Source: Bacteroidota bacterium (GTDB lineage: Bacteria > Bacteroidota > Ignavibacteria > Palsa-1295). Taken from it: a stretch of DNA of 64,000 bases. Positions 24,753 to 59,442 of this stretch are shown in pieces (the stretch's first letter is position 1; each line of letters starts with the position of its first letter). Location of the stretch: the NCBI GenBank assembly GCA_030706745.1, contig JAUZNX010000005.1:124001-188000 (forward strand), given 5' to 3'. The notes beneath the pieces are model-generated. The model was not told the origin of the DNA. It worked only from the letters and a program-made list of their open reading frames with translations, and did no database searches. A program made the translations under genes and the position numbers.

Positions 24753-24865
24753 CTCAGTATTGCACCACGCTCTTATCGATCTCTTTGCTCCAGGCGATGA
24801 TGCCGCCGCGGAGATTGCAGGCCTTGGGGAAGCCATTGCGGCGCATGAAATCTACGCGGCCACCG
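24753..24865 (-). pseudogene. copied 3' end of the rhodanese gene
   Basis: About 113 bases match the 3' end of the intact rhodanese gene (25503-25615) at roughly 90% identity, in the same orientation. On the minus strand it still reads through the last ~29 codons (MRRNGFPK, then NLRGGIIAWSKEIDKSVVQY and stop). Homology ends at the stop codon. It has no 5' part, so it is a remnant. Its inner edge overlaps the last codons of the DUF2442 gene. Confidence 0.85.
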
Positions 24866-25112
24866 GTTGCTGATGCGAGCGAAGCATCAGTTCGTAAAGA
24901 TAATCGGGTGCGATGTCGGCGCCGTTTGGCCAGACGATCGTGCTGAGATCTGGCTCTACTCGGACTTTGCGGAATTCGTTGATGTCGCGCAATGGCTCGA
25001 AGTGTCGTCCGGATAGTTCATTCGAAAGATCAACGGTCCCGGTCACACCGTTACTGAACGTGAGTTCGAGCGTGTATCCTGATATGTAACGAACAGCGAT
25101 GACGTATTCCAT
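24852..25112 (-). CDS. DUF2442 protein (antitoxin-like partner of DUF4160)
   Basis: An 86-residue protein with the DUF2442 pattern: a short beta-rich start, a central FSNGVTGTVDLS segment, and a C-terminal IVWPNGADIAPDYLYE motif. DUF2442 and DUF4160 genes are commonly adjacent and are thought to form a toxin-antitoxin-like pair, though the biochemistry is not settled. The ATG at 25112 almost touches the DUF4160 stop, so the two are an operon. Its 3' end runs into the copied rhodanese tail, which suggests the gene was placed there by a recombination event. Confidence 0.86.
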   Translation of the reverse strand: MEYVIAVRYISGYTLELTFSNGVTGTVDLSNELSGRHFEPLRDINEFRKVRVEPDLSTIVWPNGADIAPDYLYELMLRSHQQPVAA

Positions 25113-25113
25113 T

Positions 25114-25398
25114 TTAGATCAATGGTTCGATTTTCTTGATTGGCTGGTCATTCAGTAGCGCATTCCAGTTGTCCATAAGTTCCTCCCGGTGATCGGAGGC
25201 CCATTCGAGAACAGCGGAGTGAATGCGGCGAGGAAGGTTGCCGGCCAGAAGTCGGAGGTCTTGAATCGAGTACTTACCGAAGTACTCCGCATATCTCGCA
25301 TGGAAATGCGGCGGCCCGTGGTCTTTCTCGTACATTGTGATTACGATTCCCAAGAATCTGCTGATTTCTGGGATGATCTGAAAACGTCGTCTTGCCAA
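25114..25398 (-). CDS. DUF4160 protein (toxin-antitoxin-like partner)
   Basis: A 94-residue protein with the DUF4160 signature: PEISRFLGIVITMY near the start, then DHGPPHFHARY with a His/Pro-rich core, and a C-terminal LEWASDHREELMDNW. The role is not established; the pairing with DUF2442 suggests a toxin-antitoxin-like or stress module. No ATG is in frame before the domain; a TTG at 25398 is the likely start. The 105 bases before it, up to the intact rhodanese stop, contain no gene. Confidence 0.86.
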   Translation of the reverse strand: MARRRFQIIPEISRFLGIVITMYEKDHGPPHFHARYAEYFGKYSIQDLRLLAGNLPRRIHSAVLEWASDHREELMDNWNALLNDQPIKKIEPLI

Positions 25399-25503
25399 AG
25401 AAGATGCTCAGCAAACGCAGAAGAGCCGCCTCGCGGCTGGGTCGAGGATTCCACACAGCACACGATACCAAGGCGGAGGAGCCACGTGACGCGGACGTTC
25501 CGC

Positions 25504-25827
25504 TCAGTATTGCACCACGCTCTTATCGATCTCTTTACTCCAGGCGATGATGCCGCCGCGAAGATTGCGGGTCTTCGGGAATCCGTTGCGGCGCATGAAC
25601 TCAACGGCCATACCGCTCCGTCCGCCCAGCTTGCAGTGTACAACGATCTCGGCCTCCGGATCGAATTCGGCCAAATGCTGTGGCAGTGAGTTCAGCGGAA
25701 TGAGCTTGCCGCCAATGTTCGCGATATTATATTCGGATGGCTCGCGCACATCGATCAGCGTGAACTCGCGGCCCTGATCGCGCCACTCCTTTAACTCATG
25801 AACGGTGATTTCAAACGGGATTTGCAT
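25504..25827 (-). CDS. rhodanese-like sulfurtransferase, single domain
   Basis: This encodes 107 residues of one rhodanese domain, with the family segments LIDVREPSEY near 24-33 and the active-site loop HCKLGGRS with Cys65. It should carry a persulfide and transfer sulfur in the cytosol; the partner is unknown. The ATG at 25827 starts the first helix directly. The last ~113 bases are duplicated at 24753-24865 on the far side of the DUF4160/DUF2442 pair, so this gene was probably the recombination site for that module. It lies 129 bases before nuoN's stop, on the same strand. Confidence 0.92.
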   Translation of the reverse strand: MQIPFEITVHELKEWRDQGREFTLIDVREPSEYNIANIGGKLIPLNSLPQHLAEFDPEAEIVVHCKLGGRSGMAVEFMRRNGFPKTRNLRGGIIAWSKEIDKSVVQY

Positions 25828-25956
25828 AGCGTAATGATGTGTAATTGGCGGCGTGGGATTCGCAAGGCGTAAACGGGTAATGCGTACCGCGTGGTTTCTT
25901 AATAAGTTTTTAACAATGTAGTGTTGAGGAATGCCGCATGGACGCACAACATACTT

Positions 25957-35087: not shown

Positions 35088-35707
35088 GCGGTTTCCTTCC
35101 TCGGTATAGTGGACGAAACGGATTTGTCTTGACGCGCAATCGTGGCCGCGCCGATAAGTGCAACAAGCAGCACGACGGAGACTAACTCGAATGGCAGAAC
35201 ATAATCGGTCATTGCGAGCTTGCCGATTTCTGAGGCGGTGCCCTCGCTCCCGTTCTTGTCCAGGATTTCGCGGGGCGTGCCCTGCACTTGTGATGTCACC
35301 TGCTGAACGGCATCGTGACTCCATGGGCTGCGGTTCCACGGTGGTTGATCGTATCGGATCCAATGGCCCGAGATCGTAAGCGAGGCGATCAGAAAGAGGA
35401 GCGCGCCGCACAAAATTAACGCGGGGATGCGCGATCGTACTGCCGCGCGAATGTCAATGTTTGAAACGCGGTTCGTAAGCATCACGCCAAAGACAAGAAG
35501 CACGAGGATACCGCCAACATAAATCAGGAGTTGGGCGATGGCAATGAAATCCGCACTCAGGATAACATAAATGCCCGCAATTCCGAAAAATGTAAATAAC
35601 AGCGAAAATGCGGCATGGACGATATTGCGCGAGAACGCGACCAGCACCGCACTCGTGACGATCGCGATTGCAAACAGATAAAAAAATATGTCGAAGAGTC
35701 CTGGCAT
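35084..35707 (-). CDS. nuoJ: NADH-quinone oxidoreductase subunit J
   Basis: The 207-residue membrane subunit J of complex I starts with a hydrophobic helix and contains the FTFFGIAGIYVILSADFIA segment typical of NuoJ, followed by QLLIYVGGILVLLVFGVML. The C-terminal part adds a polar loop and one more helix. The ATG at 35707 overlaps the nuoI stop by one base (TAATG), and the 3' end overlaps nuoK by four, so I, J and K are translationally coupled. Confidence 0.95.
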   Translation of the reverse strand: MPGLFDIFFYLFAIAIVTSAVLVAFSRNIVHAAFSLLFTFFGIAGIYVILSADFIAIAQLLIYVGGILVLLVFGVMLTNRVSNIDIRAAVRSRIPALILCGALLFLIASLTISGHWIRYDQPPWNRSPWSHDAVQQVTSQVQGTPREILDKNGSEGTASEIGKLAMTDYVLPFELVSVVLLVALIGAATIARQDKSVSSTIPRKETA

Positions 35708-36381
35708 TATTTATTGTGGTCGTCGCCGCTCCCGGGCCCGGCTCCCGGCGCCTTAAATGGCGGAGGCTTCATTCCGGGTTTGGCTACGAACGGTGGTTTC
35801 ACGGTCCCTCCGGAGGCTTGCTGTTGCTCGGCCACTTTTGCTGCGCGCTCCGCCGCTTGTTTGGCACGAAGCGCGTTGGCTTCAACCTCCCACTTCTTCC
35901 AGTTTGCGGTGTGCTCTTCGGCTTCCGATTTGTCCATCGTGGCAAAGTGATAGATCAGGTTCTCGCGCTTGTCCTCGGCGAACTCAAACACTTCGGTCAT
36001 CACGATACACTCCGTCGGACACGGCCACACACACAGCGAGCAATAGCAGCACTTGGCCATGTCGATATCGAACCGCGTAACCCACAGCGATTTCTTCTTC
36101 GCATTGCGGGTGGTAATGCCAAGATCTTCGCCCGGTACGGACTTTACTGTGTCGATTTCGATGCAATCGACCGGACAGGCGCGCGCGCATTTATCGCAGC
36201 CTATGCAATCGTCCATATTGACGTACAACCTGTTGCGCGCTCGTTCGGGCAGCACGTAGGCATCGCGCGGCGCAGGATACTGGCGCGTGACCTTCTTTCG
36301 CAGAAGGTGACGAATCGTGATCCGAAGGCCCTCGGAGGCCGTCAGCAGTGCACGCGAAATGTCAGTGAAGTATTTTCCCAC
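35707..36381 (-). CDS. nuoI: NADH-quinone oxidoreductase subunit I (two 4Fe-4S clusters)
   Basis: The 224 residues carry the two ferredoxin-type motifs of NuoI: CIGCDKCARACPVDC and CCYCSLCVWPCPTEC, which bind clusters N6a and N6b that lead electrons to NuoB. The C-terminal ~60 residues are Ala/Pro/Lys-rich and not typical. The start is a GTG at 36381. The first 63 bases (GKYFTDISRALLTASEGLRI) have a diverged copy at 37151-37213 on the other side of the PIN/antitoxin pair, with homology ending at the start codon. The present 5' end may therefore have arrived with that pair. Confidence 0.95.
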   Translation of the reverse strand: MGKYFTDISRALLTASEGLRITIRHLLRKKVTRQYPAPRDAYVLPERARNRLYVNMDDCIGCDKCARACPVDCIEIDTVKSVPGEDLGITTRNAKKKSLWVTRFDIDMAKCCYCSLCVWPCPTECIVMTEVFEFAEDKRENLIYHFATMDKSEAEEHTANWKKWEVEANALRAKQAAERAAKVAEQQQASGGTVKPPFVAKPGMKPPPFKAPGAGPGSGDDHNK

Positions 36382-36449
36382 GGAGTTTGAAAATGGCGGA
36401 AAGCCTGAACACGCCTCAGGAGAGGAGCAATCCGTAAGGGCCGGAGCCT

Positions 36450-36857
36450 TTATGAAAATTGGAGAAGAAACTCCGATGATGTTATGGCGGGGATTCTGCC
36501 AGACGCGAAGTCCCTTACGTTGCTCGTTATGATAAACGTGGAAGAAGCAGCATGGGCCGCTGCCTCGACGATAGCATCTTCAAAATCTGCGATCGCGCTA
36601 TTCCGAGCCTCTGTCAGCATTGCCTTGTTCACCGGCACAATTTCGAGTACATCCAAAAGTTGCCCCGATAGCTCCCGCGCTTTCGAGATTCCAAGCGACT
36701 TCTTCAGAATATAATAAATCGTGGGAGCAGCGTGAGAGGGAATGTTGCCGGACACCTTCCATCTTCGGCAAAGACTGAGCACCGCCATCGAGGAATCGAA
36801 GTCACCCCGAAGCAGGTAGATGTCGAGAATGACGTTCAGGTCAATCGTTGCGACCAT
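36450..36857 (-). CDS. PIN-domain protein (VapC-like toxin candidate)
   Basis: A 135-residue PIN-domain protein. The acidic metal site is visible: Asp6 in TIDLNVILD, Glu/Asp at 91-94 in DFEDAI, and Asn113/Asp116 in TSNVRDF. PIN proteins of this size are usually ribonuclease toxins of VapBC-type pairs. The ATG at 36857 overlaps the upstream antitoxin-like gene by 17 bases, as in many toxin-antitoxin pairs. It lies inside the nuo locus, between nuoI and the small gene after nuoH, and is bracketed by nuoI 5'-end copies. It is in the transcription direction of nuo. Confidence 0.9.
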   Translation of the reverse strand: MVATIDLNVILDIYLLRGDFDSSMAVLSLCRRWKVSGNIPSHAAPTIYYILKKSLGISKARELSGQLLDVLEIVPVNKAMLTEARNSAIADFEDAIVEAAAHAASSTFIITSNVRDFASGRIPAITSSEFLLQFS

Positions 36858-37101
36858 GCTGGAGGAACTTCTCCGTCAAGGATTGCATGCGCAGAGCCTC
36901 GAGGTCACTATCCGGCGGCAAAATGCCCGCCCATGATTGGATCATAGGATCGATGTCCCGATCGGTGGCATGACGAAGCGTGCGAACGAGGTAATCGAAG
37001 ACATCATCGACCTTCATCTTCGTCCGTTCGGCAAACGAGCGAATAAACGCCGCCTCGGAAGCCGGCAAGTCGATGGTAAAATGCTCAGATCCATTCATCA
37101 T
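36841..37101 (-). CDS. antitoxin-like partner of the PIN-domain protein
   Basis: An 86-residue acidic protein with an N-terminal FTIDLPASEAAFIRSFAERT segment of the kind found in ribbon-helix-helix antitoxins, followed by helical, acidic C-terminal sequence. I cannot name the family with certainty. Position and overlap with the PIN gene make an antitoxin role likely. The ATG at 37101 is followed by a second ATG; which is used is unclear. Autoregulation would be expected for such a pair but no operator is evident. Confidence 0.78.
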   Translation of the reverse strand: MMNGSEHFTIDLPASEAAFIRSFAERTKMKVDDVFDYLVRTLRHATDRDIDPMIQSWAGILPPDSDLEALRMQSLTEKFLQHGRND

Positions 37102-37150
37102 AAACTAAAATGTTTCGGCAATGGGATTAGTTCGTTACAGCAAGGATGGC

Positions 37151-37213
37151 GATCCGAAGGCCTTCGGAGGCCGTCAGAAGAGCTCGCCAGATATCTGAGA
37201 AGTATTTTGTCAC
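37151..37213 (-). pseudogene. copied 5' end of nuoI (21 codons)
   Basis: On the minus strand GTG at 37213 opens a 21-codon stretch, TKYFSDIWRALLTASEGLRI, matching the start of nuoI at 36319-36381 with about 83% base identity (roughly 11 differences in 63). The outer homology stops right at the start codon and the frame then continues without nuoI similarity. It lies 38 bases after the stop of the small gene that follows nuoH, where an undisturbed nuoI would be expected to begin. Confidence 0.85.
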
Positions 37214-37250
37214 AAGAAATAACTAACGACGATGCTGTGGCGACTTTTCC

Positions 37251-37475
37251 TCACACATCTTCAAAGATGCGGTCCGGCGTCACCAAACTTCCAAATGCCC
37301 CAATGACTTGCAGAAGGTGTCCCGCGCCAGCAATGATGGCGGTATGAGTGAGAAGTGGAAACAAATCATCCAGGTGTTTCCACTCCGCGATCCATCCAAC
37401 AGCGGCGAGGACGGTCCCGAAGAAGAAGAGCAAGGTGTAGATGAGTCGTCGCCGTCGCATACCGTGTTGCGTCAT
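37251..37475 (-). CDS. small membrane protein in the nuo locus
   Basis: A 74-residue protein with a basic start and two hydrophobic segments (about 11-28 and 40-62). I do not recognise the family. Its ATG at 37475 overlaps the TGA of nuoH by four bases (ATGA), so it is translated with nuoH and is very likely a real, co-regulated gene. It may be an accessory subunit or assembly factor of the complex, but that is only inference from position. Confidence 0.7.
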   Translation of the reverse strand: MTQHGMRRRRLIYTLLFFFGTVLAAVGWIAEWKHLDDLFPLLTHTAIIAGAGHLLQVIGAFGSLVTPDRIFEDV

Positions 37476-38578
37476 TGAAGAACAACGCTAAGTGTACTCG
37501 CAGCAAGAACAGCAACAAGACTAAACGGAATCAACACCTTCCAGCAAATATGCATGACCTGATCTACGCGCAAGCGGGGCAGCGTCCAGCGAATCCAGAT
37601 CTGAACGAAGACGAAACTGAGTCCCTTGAGCACGAACCACCCGAATCCGATGAGTGGTCCGTTCGCATCGCCCACGATGCTCGATCCACCGAATGGCGAT
37701 TGCCAGCCACCCAGGAATAAGACCGATGCGACCGCGCCGACGGCAAACATGCTCGCATACTCCGCAAGGAAGAACAGTGCAAACTTCATACCGCTATACT
37801 CGGTGTGATAGCCGGCGACAAGTTCCGATTCGGCTTCAGGCACATCGAATGGCACGCGGTTCGTCTCGGCCAGCGAGCCGACGAAATAGACCGCGAACGC
37901 AATGAGCATGACTGGGATCAGCGCGAGGTTCGACATGCCGCCAAAGCCGGGCAGGTGCTTCGGCCCACCAAAGAGAAACCAGTTTTGAATACCACCGGCC
38001 TGCAAATTCGTGATCGTCTGCAAATCCATCGAGCCGGCTACCACGACGATCGTGAGGATCGCGAGCGCGACCGGAATCTCATATGAGATGATTTGAGCGA
38101 CAGAACGCATCGCCCCGAGCATCGAATACTTATTGTTCGATCCCCAGCCGGCCATCAGAATGGAGATCACCGCGAGCGAGCCGATGCTGATGAAGTAAAA
38201 AATGCCCGTGTTCAAACGCGCGCCAACATACGCCACTGAAAATGGCAGCGCCGCGAATGCCGCGTAGCTCGCCAGAAAGATCATCCACGGCGCGAGCCGG
38301 TACATCGCTTTGTCCGCTACGAGCGGCATCGTATCTTCTTTCTGTAGCAGCTTCAGGATGTCAGCAATCGGTTGCAGCGTGCCTTTCGGACCAGTGCGCA
38401 TGGGTCCCAAACGGTCCTGCACCCACGCGGAAATCTTCATCTCACCTAAGATCGCGATGAGACCGTAGACCAGAATGAACAGGAGCGGAACGGCGCAATA
38501 GACCAGCGTCGTCAGTGCAAGCGACGCCATGCTTTGACCAATTATATTGGCGACGAATTCGTAGATGAAATCGAACAT
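37472..38578 (-). CDS. nuoH: NADH-quinone oxidoreductase subunit H
   Basis: The 368-residue membrane subunit H lies at the junction with the peripheral arm and lines the quinone site. Typical segments are AWVQDRLGPMRTGPKGTLQP in the first part, and RVPFDVPEAESELVAGYHTEYSG later. The ATG at 38578 starts the first helix. The gene is separated from nuoD by a gene on the opposite strand (38680-39201), so the operon order A-B-C-D-H is interrupted here. Confidence 0.95.
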   Translation of the reverse strand: MFDFIYEFVANIIGQSMASLALTTLVYCAVPLLFILVYGLIAILGEMKISAWVQDRLGPMRTGPKGTLQPIADILKLLQKEDTMPLVADKAMYRLAPWMIFLASYAAFAALPFSVAYVGARLNTGIFYFISIGSLAVISILMAGWGSNNKYSMLGAMRSVAQIISYEIPVALAILTIVVVAGSMDLQTITNLQAGGIQNWFLFGGPKHLPGFGGMSNLALIPVMLIAFAVYFVGSLAETNRVPFDVPEAESELVAGYHTEYSGMKFALFFLAEYASMFAVGAVASVLFLGGWQSPFGGSSIVGDANGPLIGFGWFVLKGLSFVFVQIWIRWTLPRLRVDQVMHICWKVLIPFSLVAVLAASTLSVVLQ

Positions 38579-38660: not shown

Positions 38661-38679
38661 TGGTGTCATTTGCACGATT

Positions 38680-39201
38680 ATGCAAATCATCTGGCTCTCC
38701 ATCGCGGTTCTCTTCCTGATATTATTCGGGATCTTTGTCATTCTGATTTATTTCTTAACGAGGCGCACTATGGCGACTTATCCTTTACCAGCGTATCATT
38801 TCAGTGTCGAGTGGGGCGGAAGTCGAACGGGTTTTTTGGAAGTTAAAGGACTCGACATTCTGATCGATGCCGTCGCGGTCCGCGATGGATCTTCGCCCGA
38901 AGACTCGATGAAGAAAATGCCGGGACTCCGGAAGTTCAGCAATGTGATTCTCAAACGCGGCATTATCAAAGGTGATAACGAGTTCTTCCAATGGATCAAT
39001 ACAAAAACGATGGGATCGATCGAGCGTCGCGACGTGGTCATCAAGTTATTGGACGATGAGCATGCTCCGGCGGTAGTATGGACGCTGCACGATGCATTTC
39101 CCGTTCGTTACTCGGGTCCATTTCTGTTTTCCTCCGATAGCGAAATTGCGATCGAGGAGCTGGAACTTGTCCATGAAGGAATTTCAGTGGAGTATTCGTA
39201 G
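38680..39201 (+). CDS. T4-gp19-like (contractile tail tube family) protein with N-terminal membrane helix
   Basis: This encodes up to 173 residues. From residue 31 the sequence (MATYPLPAYHFSVEWGG ... GLRKFSNVILKRGIIKGDNEF ... RRDVVIKLLDD ... IEELELVHEGISVEYS) is a complete T4 gp19/TIGR02241 tail-tube domain of about 143 residues, as found in phage tails and contractile injection systems. The first 30 residues form one strongly hydrophobic helix, which tube proteins normally lack. An internal ATG at 38770 has a GAGG seven bases upstream, so a soluble form may also be made. No other tail or injection gene is nearby. It lies on the plus strand between nuoD and nuoH. Confidence 0.85.
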   Translation: MQIIWLSIAVLFLILFGIFVILIYFLTRRTMATYPLPAYHFSVEWGGSRTGFLEVKGLDILIDAVAVRDGSSPEDSMKKMPGLRKFSNVILKRGIIKGDNEFFQWINTKTMGSIERRDVVIKLLDDEHAPAVVWTLHDAFPVRYSGPFLFSSDSEIAIEELELVHEGISVEYS

Positions 39202-57080: not shown

Positions 57081-57209
57081 TCTTGCCAGTATTCGATCTC
57101 GAAGATGTAGGTGTGCTAAATCTTAATGCTGGTTGAAGTGCAGCGTAACTCTGATGTCCTATTTGTGTTATTTGGTAGGGTAATGTCCACACGCACGGAG
57201 GATAGTCAC

Positions 57210-57965
57210 ATGATGCGAAGAGTTGCTTTGATATCCCTGTTGTTAACTGTCGCGAGTCCCGGACTTCGCGCTCAGTCTCAGATCGGTTTTGAATTCGGTG
57301 TCGGTCGAGACACGCAAAGCGGTGAAGTGGATGCGGCATGCGGCTGTTCCTTCGCGGATGGTAGCGGTACTGGCTTTAGGGGAGCGGTTTCATACGAAGC
57401 GCCGCTCTTCTTTGGGATCAGAGGTGGTGTCAAGAGTGGACTCGAATTCAAAAGGACACACGGCTCCATCGCAATCACCGAACCAGCTATCATCCAGGCG
57501 TCTGGGAGCGGGACGGATACTGTGATGCAAATGCCGATTAATCGGGTACTCGATGTGTCGATTACTTACATCACCTTCATGCCATACCTGAGCTACTTCA
57601 TTCCGGGTATCCCGTTATTCCTGCAACTTGGGACCACTGTGTCCGACCTTCAGTCGAGTACGTTCAAAGAAACGCGGCAGTTGGCTACAACATCTCTTAC
57701 CGTGAACGGTCACACAATTCCCGACATGAGGTTTCAAAACGGGGCGACCACCGAGACGCTCAGTGATGGTCCAATCCAAGATGCGAACAAGTTACGCGTC
57801 GCCGCGCAGATGTCAATCGGTTATTATGTGGTGGATGTTTTTGGATTTGGAGTTGCGCCGATGGTGACCTACGATCTCCCGCTCTCAACCGTCCGCGATG
57901 TCACTGCGACGAACTGGAAAATTTCCTCGATCTACGGCACGGTCATGCTGAAATTTGGTTTGTAA
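57210..57965 (+). CDS. outer-membrane barrel-like protein, first of three tandem paralogs
   Basis: About 251 residues with a signal peptide and a beta-rich mature part. It begins QIGFEFGVGRDTQSGEV and ends ISSIYGTVMLKFGL; the terminal aromatic/hydrophobic pattern suits a barrel protein. Near residue 43 a short ACGCSFADGSGTGF loop contains two cysteines in a CxC arrangement that recurs in both paralogs. The ATG at 57210 is chosen because GGAGGA lies about eight bases upstream. The function is unknown. Confidence 0.75.
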   Translation: MMRRVALISLLLTVASPGLRAQSQIGFEFGVGRDTQSGEVDAACGCSFADGSGTGFRGAVSYEAPLFFGIRGGVKSGLEFKRTHGSIAITEPAIIQASGSGTDTVMQMPINRVLDVSITYITFMPYLSYFIPGIPLFLQLGTTVSDLQSSTFKETRQLATTSLTVNGHTIPDMRFQNGATTETLSDGPIQDANKLRVAAQMSIGYYVVDVFGFGVAPMVTYDLPLSTVRDVTATNWKISSIYGTVMLKFGL

Positions 57966-57996
57966 TGTCGATTGGTCATCACTAACATCGAGCATT

Positions 57997-58740
57997 ATGA
58001 CGCTTCGATTCTGCTTCGCAGCTATTTCTGTTCTGATTTTCCAGCCAATGAACGTTCTCGCTCAGAACCAGATCGGACTCGAGTTCGGTATCGGCCGACA
58101 CATGCAGTCCGGCGCTATCAAGGATTCTTGTGGCTGCATTCCAGGCAACGGAACCGGTACCGGCTTTACGGGTGCACTCTTCTTTGAGATGCCAATGTTT
58201 TCGGGGGTGCGAGCGGGCATGAAGGCTCGGCTGGATTATAAGAAGACGAGCAGCTCAGGCATCTTTCAGGATTCTGTCGTTTTCCAATCGCCAGACAACG
58301 CGGGCCGGATTCCGATTGAGCACACGCTCGACGTCTCGGCAGGCTATCTGACGCTCTCGCCGTACCTTGGCTACAAGCTTCCGGGACTAGGTCTCTTCTT
58401 TCAGCTCGGCGCAAGCGTGTCCGATTTGGTTTCGAGCGAGTTGACGGAGACGCGGGCGATCACAACATCAACGGTGACGATGAACGGGACAACCTACAAC
58501 AACATCTCGCTCCCCGATGGATCACGAAAAGAGACCACAGCCAATGGCGACATTGCAGATGCAAGCCAGTTGCGCGTAGCTGCGTTCATTTCGGCAGGAT
58601 ATGAGATTCCAATCAGCCGATCAATTCTTGCGCCGATGATCACGTATGATGCTCCGCTTACGAATGTCCGATCTTTGAACGCGAGTGGGTGGAAGATTTC
58701 TTCGGTCTATGGCACAATCGCGCTGAAATTTGGTTTGTAG
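57997..58740 (+). CDS. outer-membrane barrel-like protein, second of three tandem paralogs
   Basis: The 247 residues have a signal peptide and closely match the first paralog: QIGLEFGIGRHMQSGAI, SCGCIPGNGTGTGF, then similar barrel segments and the ending KISSVYGTIALKFGL. The start at 57997 puts the signal peptide directly at the N-terminus. It is 31 bases after the first paralog and probably in the same transcript. Confidence 0.76.
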   Translation: MTLRFCFAAISVLIFQPMNVLAQNQIGLEFGIGRHMQSGAIKDSCGCIPGNGTGTGFTGALFFEMPMFSGVRAGMKARLDYKKTSSSGIFQDSVVFQSPDNAGRIPIEHTLDVSAGYLTLSPYLGYKLPGLGLFFQLGASVSDLVSSELTETRAITTSTVTMNGTTYNNISLPDGSRKETTANGDIADASQLRVAAFISAGYEIPISRSILAPMITYDAPLTNVRSLNASGWKISSVYGTIALKFGL

Positions 58741-58773
58741 GAGCGCTCTTCCACTCACAAGTCTCGTCGGTTT

Positions 58774-59442
58774 ATGATATTTAGACATTATGCGGTGATT
58801 GCGGTACTCCTCGTCATTGCTCCATACGCTTCTCGTGCCCAGTGGGGCGTCGAAGCCGGTGTCGGCTATGATATTCAGGGCGGTACGTTCACCGCTCCAT
58901 GCGCGTGTCCTTATTCCGATGGTTCCGGTTACGCCGTGCGGGGTGCTGTTTCGTATGATGTGATTTCGCTATTCGGACTTTCGATCGGCGTCATGCCTGG
59001 TGTCGATTATAAGCAATTTGAATCCGCTCATACCTGGACGAATCCGAATGATCCGTCATTTTCCATTCGCGACAGCGCGAATATCAGTCAGACTTACATT
59101 ACGTTCGAGCCGTATGTGAGGTATACAATCCCCGTTGTCGGGGTGTTTGTTCAGGCTGCTCCTTCTGCAGCCTATATGGTTTCGAGCCATTTTTATCAAC
59201 GGAAGTACAACGCTACTATTGATTCAGTCTGGCAAAATGGTCCTTTAGAGAATTCCGCGAACATGAGATACTCGGCTCATATTTCGGCGGGATATGACTT
59301 TGCATTGCTTGGACTGCAGGTTGCACCGAGTATCACGGCCGATCTCCCGCTTTCGCAGATCTACTCCGTGGATGCCAAAAACGTGGCGAGTTCATATTGG
59401 GGCATTACCACAATCTATGGTTCACTGGCAGTGCGGTTTTGA
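58774..59442 (+). CDS. outer-membrane barrel-like protein, third and most diverged tandem paralog
   Basis: The 222 residues have a signal peptide and a shorter barrel-type mature part. It keeps the WGVEAGVGYDIQGGTF and PCACPYSDGSGYAV segments, including the CxC pair, but is less like the other two in the middle and end (ITTIYGSLAVRF). Probably a tandem gene duplication; the spacing is 33 bases. Confidence 0.74.
   Translation: MIFRHYAVIAVLLVIAPYASRAQWGVEAGVGYDIQGGTFTAPCACPYSDGSGYAVRGAVSYDVISLFGLSIGVMPGVDYKQFESAHTWTNPNDPSFSIRDSANISQTYITFEPYVRYTIPVVGVFVQAAPSAAYMVSSHFYQRKYNATIDSVWQNGPLENSANMRYSAHISAGYDFALLGLQVAPSITADLPLSQIYSVDAKNVASSYWGITTIYGSLAVRF

Follow-up and report, generated by a model that had tools for sequence, protein, structure and literature searches.

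Toxin-antitoxin pairs bracketed by duplicated ends of neighboring genes in a genus of Ignavibacteria

How chromosomal toxin-antitoxin (TA) pairs move without a visible mobility gene is a long-standing question. The window, by which we mean the whole stretch of 64,000 nucleotides that we have analyzed, contains a predicted TA pair inside a respiratory operon, between a partial copy of the nuoI 5' end and the complete nuoI gene. How did this pair reach its present position, and why does the start of its neighbor appear twice? The original prediction was that a related genome had supplied the pair together with a nuoI 5' end, which entered by recombination inside nuoI. The minus-strand order which it described is found as described: nuoH, a small gene of 74 codons, a copy of the nuoI start, an antitoxin-like reading frame, a PIN reading frame and complete nuoI. 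The parts of this junction are the following:

37472..38578, minus: nuoH (Pfam NADHdh, E 2e-113)
37251..37475, minus: 74-codon gene between nuoH and nuoI, conserved in the genus and the family
37214..37250, minus: intergenic stretch, with promoter-like spacing as upstream of the nuoI of relatives (alignment by eye)
37146..37213, minus: remnant copy of the nuoI 5' end (the stub), 68 aligned bases, 55 of them identical
36841..37101, minus: antitoxin-like gene, 86 codons, with a 17-base overlap with the toxin gene
36450..36857, minus: PIN-domain toxin gene (VapC-like, predicted), 135 codons, Pfam PIN_3
36408..36433, minus: promoter-like element before functional nuoI, also found upstream of nuoI in G003 and G006, with one occurrence in its own genome
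36314..36381, minus: second copy of the repeat, the 5' end of complete nuoI, defined by alignment with the stub
35707..36381, minus: complete nuoI (at most 108 bits with the NuoI models of NCBIfam, which is under their curated cut-offs)

The 74-codon gene has tblastn matches in the corresponding regions of nine out of ten relatives; the G003 contig starts too late. The PIN protein matches Pfam PIN_3 with 55 bits (cut-off 27, E 1.6e-14), and a search of solved structures finds no relative of it at E values up to 1. Judged by their sequences, the two genes fit the architecture of a type II TA system, with a known toxin domain and a small gene adjoining it upstream. They share with VapBC-type pairs (PIN_3, PIN) and with DhiTA the presence of two small genes, with the antitoxin first in the PIN case, and toxin families which are recognized by Pfam. 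They differ from VapBC-type pairs in that the antitoxin of the window falls in no family above cut-off, with only a sub-threshold match to DUF6364, and the role of the toxin is a predicted one.

The two nuoI starts are far more similar than expected by chance. They are identical at 55 of 68 bases, which is 81% and not the approximately 83% first given, and their alignment score is 42. For comparison, the upstream DNA scores no more than 14 when shuffled 60 times, and 400 pairs of mismatched flanks score no more than 32. As protein, the identity is 85.7% over 21 residues (E 7e-6). The reading frame of the stub stays open for 28 codons (37213-37127). The homology was also said to stop at the GTG start codon. 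This holds in a plain alignment, but a promoter-like spacing (GGA...TC, 14 bases, GTT(C)AG; alignment by eye) precedes the stub, the functional nuoI and the nuoI genes of G003, G005 and G006, and the common ancestry may therefore extend upstream of the start codon. The spacing ends 8-9 bases before the start codon in these three relatives and 23 bases before it in the functional nuoI of the window. A promoter so near the start would give a nearly leaderless nuoI transcript. A tail-tube-like gene on the plus strand (38674-39201, Pfam Phage_T4_gp19, E 4e-37) lies between nuoD and nuoH, on the opposite strand: it would be a contractile-injection-type subunit within a respiratory operon.

We have compared this junction in the genus, which is represented by seven species with one genome per species, all of them MAG assemblies (G000, the genome of the window, and G001 to G006), and in other members of the family. 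The sister species G001, whose nuoI is 89% identical, also has two nuoI starts at the same junction. The TA pair between them is not that of the window: its antitoxin is Phd/YefM-like (27.2 bits, slightly under the cut-off of 29.8) and its PIN protein belongs to another family, PF01850. Its stub is identical to its own nuoI at 37 of 38 bases, the homology ends at base 44, and the start codon of the stub is GTC. The junction is free of inserts in G004 and G005, and in the family members G007, G008, G011 and G012. As foreseen, nuoI starts only once in relatives that lack the pair, at a distance of 67-72 bases (G005, G004) or of 59 and 23 bases (G007, G011) past the small gene. Two nuoI starts with no insert, the pattern that would speak against an insertion, are not seen: G004 and G005 have no second start, and the gaps in the family leave no room for one. 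G002 and G006 have inserts, of about 3 kb and 0.7 kb respectively, in which no family is recognized, and a search of the inserts of G002, G003 and G006 gives no nuoI stub above shuffles, with the G003 contig starting inside the region. A decayed Fic gene was considered for the G006 insert and not retained, as neither Pfam nor NCBIfam gives a match. In the wider class, both genes of the junction are present in 74 of 80 loci, and in 65 of these they are at most 75 bases apart. A distant Ignavibacteria MAG shows that the pattern is not exclusive to TA pairs: locus L087 (4442-6190) has a 190-base nuoI stub, with 183 bases identical to the complete nuoI, and a 418-codon non-TA gene between the two starts. 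Together with the inserts of G001 and the window, this indicates that the nuoI 5' end has been struck in at least two lineages and that TA pairs are not the sole inserts. By eye, the 418-codon gene resembles a secreted beta-propeller, and it represents a recent case in which this target received something other than a TA pair.

The same nuo region of the window contains a second case, in which the repeat is the 3' end of a rhodanese gene:

25503..25606, minus: rhodanese 3' end, the repeat copy of the intact gene (25504-25947); 104-base repeat, 95 identical
25114..25398, minus: DhiT-like toxin (DUF4160, predicted); Pfam DUF4160 80 bits, NCBIfam NF048015 77 bits (cut-off 100)
24852..25112, minus: DhiA-like antitoxin (DUF2442, predicted); Pfam DUF2442 62 bits, NCBIfam NF048016 39 bits (cut-off 200)
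24753..24856, minus: remnant of the rhodanese 3' end, from the 104-base repeat alignment

The DhiTA pair (24852-25398) thus lies between two rhodanese 3' ends (24753-25606). In all four genus members examined, rhodanese follows nuoN with neither a TA pair nor a second copy. PADLOC gives no match for either TA pair of the window, the PIN pair or the DhiTA pair.

These two sites belong to a common pattern: the nuoI/PIN arrangement is one of dozens in the genus, which the original prediction had missed. For each TA locus, we have compared the 1500 bases upstream with the 1500 bases downstream on the same strand, and counted the locus if the score was at least 25, a threshold picked after the null was seen (mismatched flanks reach 25 in 2 of 400 pairs). 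The loci are those given by the search tool, not a random sample: 30 of 79 PF01850, 16 of 16 PF13470 and 30 of 42 ParE matches of the genus. Rows with short flanks (two PIN, one RelE) were left out, and the 44 PIN rows that were counted are 43 distinct places. In the genus, repeats bracket PIN loci in 26 of 44 cases and RelE loci in 13 of 29; for PIN loci in other families of the class, the count is 9 of 27. Response regulators, the sole gene-family control, give 1 of 30, a weak match far from the gene (Fisher p 3e-7 for PIN and 2e-4 for RelE). When the repeat is required to adjoin the pair, the counts are 19/44 for PIN, 7/29 for RelE, 8/27 for PIN in other families and 0/30 for response regulators. 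The 26 tight cases of the genus have an inner DNA of 560-783 bp, with a median of 697, which corresponds to one TA pair and little else, and repeats of 27-199 bases (median 76). The repeats are ends of genes, mutS, pseudouridine synthase and rhodanese among them. Repeats are absent from some 40% of the PIN loci of the genus and from about half of its RelE loci.

A blind scan starts from the repeats instead of the TA genes. It covers 464 kb, composed of the window and of 20 preset stretches of 20 kb each from the same genome. The repeats sought lie on the same strand, are separated by 400-1600 bp and do not fall within one reading frame. Five sites are found: nuoI/PIN, rhodanese/DhiTA, mutS/RelBE, an antitoxin-like reading frame in intergenic repeats and a Y1 transposase that has repeats of its own. 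All three sites with gene-end repeats contain a TA pair. At the fourth site (L326:18292-18817), the antitoxin-like frame has no toxin and lies between two copies of a 101-base intergenic repeat. At the fifth (L336:6669-7445), a Y1-type, REP-associated-like transposase gene is flanked by repeated GGTGCAAGC...GCTTGCACC hairpin units. Three tandem paralogues in the window (57126-59442), which by eye resemble outer-membrane proteins, were considered as a further case and rejected, as their repeats are ordinary ones from three paralogous genes.

Other sites also have empty counterparts in the genus. The end of a pseudouridine synthase gene is duplicated around a PIN pair only in G001, and the six other genus genomes have a single end. 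The mutS end is duplicated around RelBE in G000 and in G001, where the toxin is mostly deleted, so this insertion is older than the split of the two species. The mutS duplication is absent from G002-G005, and the G006 contig ends within the gene.

The differences between the two copies of each repeat have a codon pattern. A confident gene call was possible at 17 of the 48 repeat loci, where differences at codon positions 1, 2 and 3 number 37, 37 and 86 (p 9e-8); the nuoI of the window is among the 31 loci without such a call. If we add the nuoI of the window (3, 2, 8), the nuoI of G001 (1, 1, 1) and rhodanese (2, 0, 7), and remove the misframed L165 (antisense), the counts are 43, 40 and 101, out of 184 (p 2e-9). 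The excess stems from 3' ends; a hand sum of the four 5'-end loci gives 9, 9 and 9. A third-position excess indicates that in most such cases both copies evolved as coding sequences before they were joined, and if both copies were once parts of working genes, the import of an allele from a relative is favored.

At nuoI itself, the import signal is weak. In bases 4-30, the functional copy agrees with the sister G001 at none of seven discriminating sites and with the more distant G003 at four of seven, while the remnant agrees with G001 at five of the seven. The permutation p of this mosaic is 0.023 for the first segment of the alignment and 0.72 for any segment. Identity to the sister is 36/45 in the first 45 bases and 372/432 in the rest, which is not a significant difference (p 0.18). 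The interpretation first offered for this site is therefore partly supported: third-position divergence over many loci, the nuoI of the window included, speaks for the import of a foreign gene end by recombination, but the local mosaic adds little to it.

On balance, we favor the reading that a related genome was the source of a TA pair with a piece of the neighboring gene, which then recombined with the homologous end here, and that many TA pairs of the genus arrived likewise. At nuoI, the incoming unit would be composed of antitoxin, PIN gene, promoter and nuoI 5' end. Recombination in the first nuoI codons would yield nuoI as a complete gene whose 5' end is a hybrid, and leave the resident 5' end as a stub before the antitoxin. 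The route most consistent with a bare TA pair between two partial copies is the single crossover of a small circle, formed by a TA pair and one gene end, with the chromosomal end. This would give gene, TA pair and partial end in this order, or the mirror image for a 5' end. Alternatively, a linear fragment may have been joined by homology on one side and illegitimately on the other; the small and uniform inner size points to a short circle rather than to random linear fragments. Recombination between the repeats would delete the insert, and we infer that an addictive pair would penalize its own loss, which may be why the inserts are mostly TA pairs. Among the relatives examined, there is no donor genome with the TA pair and gene end as a unit.

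Several other explanations have to be weighed against this import of a gene end. Nobusato et al. in 2000 and Furuta et al. in 2010 reportedly described the insertion of restriction-modification systems with a long target duplication. TA pairs might be inserted in a similar way by an unknown mechanism, with copies that were identical at first and then drifted. The anatomy would be the same as that of restriction-modification insertions, whose target duplications are long and variable according to passages of PMC3874152 and PMC3031569. Moreover, direct repeats bracket the inserts, the repeat is single in relatives free of the unit (at nuoI, rhodanese and pseudouridine synthase), and near-identical copies do exist (183/190 in L087 and 194/198 in a 198-base case). 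A useless stub, on the other hand, should drift at all codon positions, and third positions hold 101 of the 184 differences; in the pseudouridine synthase case they hold 12 of 14 coding differences. We consider this explanation rather unlikely. An integron-like or other site-specific system, in which a recombinase would place TA cassettes at gene ends used as attachment sites, is improbable. It would account for the arrays found at some places, where one gene end appears 3-7 times at a spacing of roughly 280-1650 bp, with different genes in between, mostly TA pairs (four copies of one gene end in G002:C24, five in G003:C4), and where some copies have sharp common borders. Integrons carry TA cassettes, and chromosomal integron arrays resemble these arrays in having small TA cassettes in tandem with repeats between them. 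They differ in the nature of the repeats, which here are the ordinary coding ends of the neighbors, vary from site to site and do not look palindromic or attC-like in the array alignments (by eye). Self-complementary repeats are found only in two genomes outside the genus, and the integron integrase (TIGR02249) is above cut-off in none of the seven genus genomes.

The two remaining explanations concern the stub itself. It might be kept because it is functional, the old nuoI promoter and first codons serving as leader of the TA operon. The stub of the window would allow this, as its open frame ends 25 bases before the antitoxin ATG and promoter-like spacing lies ahead of it. The G001 stub, on the other hand, has GTC in place of a start codon, and its homology is over at base 44. 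At many other loci the stub follows the toxin gene, a position that excludes a leader function, and this makes such a role very doubtful. Tandem duplication of gene ends might also have come first, with TA pairs landing between the copies later. This order of events has no direct support and is disfavored to the point of being hardly credible: in the 464 kb of the blind scan, no duplicated gene end lacks a TA pair, and the end is single in relatives from which the pair is absent.

The recombination of imported gene ends may be compared with known processes. According to PMC3240628, gene ends in E. coli are duplicated over 109-950 bp when a circular molecule integrates by single crossover. The likeness is the partial duplication of a gene end around the insert; the difference is that the E. 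coli case, as presented there, is an engineered plasmid, while a circle is inferred here. Homology-facilitated illegitimate recombination, which the same source also treats, has one-sided homology with an illegitimate joint on the other side, but by that account it normally inserts DNA at the cost of a deletion of about equal size and does not yield a duplication. Restriction-modification insertions are similar in that an addictive unit without transposase is flanked by direct repeats of about 100 bp copied from the target, as a passage of PMC3874152 has it. They differ in three aspects: the units found here are TA pairs, which belong to several families, several units may follow each other at one site, and the copies have often diverged by 5-25% with a third-position bias, which points to an imported allele. 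Insertion with long target duplication is thus known for restriction-modification systems; for TA pairs bracketed by duplicated gene ends, we have found no report in a literature search with most subscription papers outside its coverage.

Our results suggest that bracketed TA pairs spread by ordinary recombination at the ends of their neighbors, and not by an enzyme of their own. The borders can be read at dozens of sites, with a TA pair between two alleles of the neighbor's end and empty sites in sister species. Homologous recombination at gene ends is a concrete route that can be tested, and it would account for TA pairs in close contact with core genes such as nuoI and mutS. The bracketing repeat may also serve as a simple signature for TA arrivals in other groups.

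A broader possibility, which we put forward only tentatively, is that TA pairs behave as cassettes without a recombinase. Recombination between the repeats might free a circle of about 0.75 kb, with the TA pair and one gene end, which could enter a relative again by a single crossover. The core-gene end would be the attachment site, host homologous recombination the engine and addiction the means of retention, and repeated entry would build arrays. The arrays of one gene end described above fit repeated entry at that end. One region, L271 (G000:C2:158000-172000), has RelBE pairs interleaved with secreted-protein-like genes which have variable middles and near-identical 3' ends (ending CYFARLGTEVAKFCVVE). 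We have rejected it as a plain TA array: its repeats are the matching ends of these paralogous genes, which makes it a weaker example.
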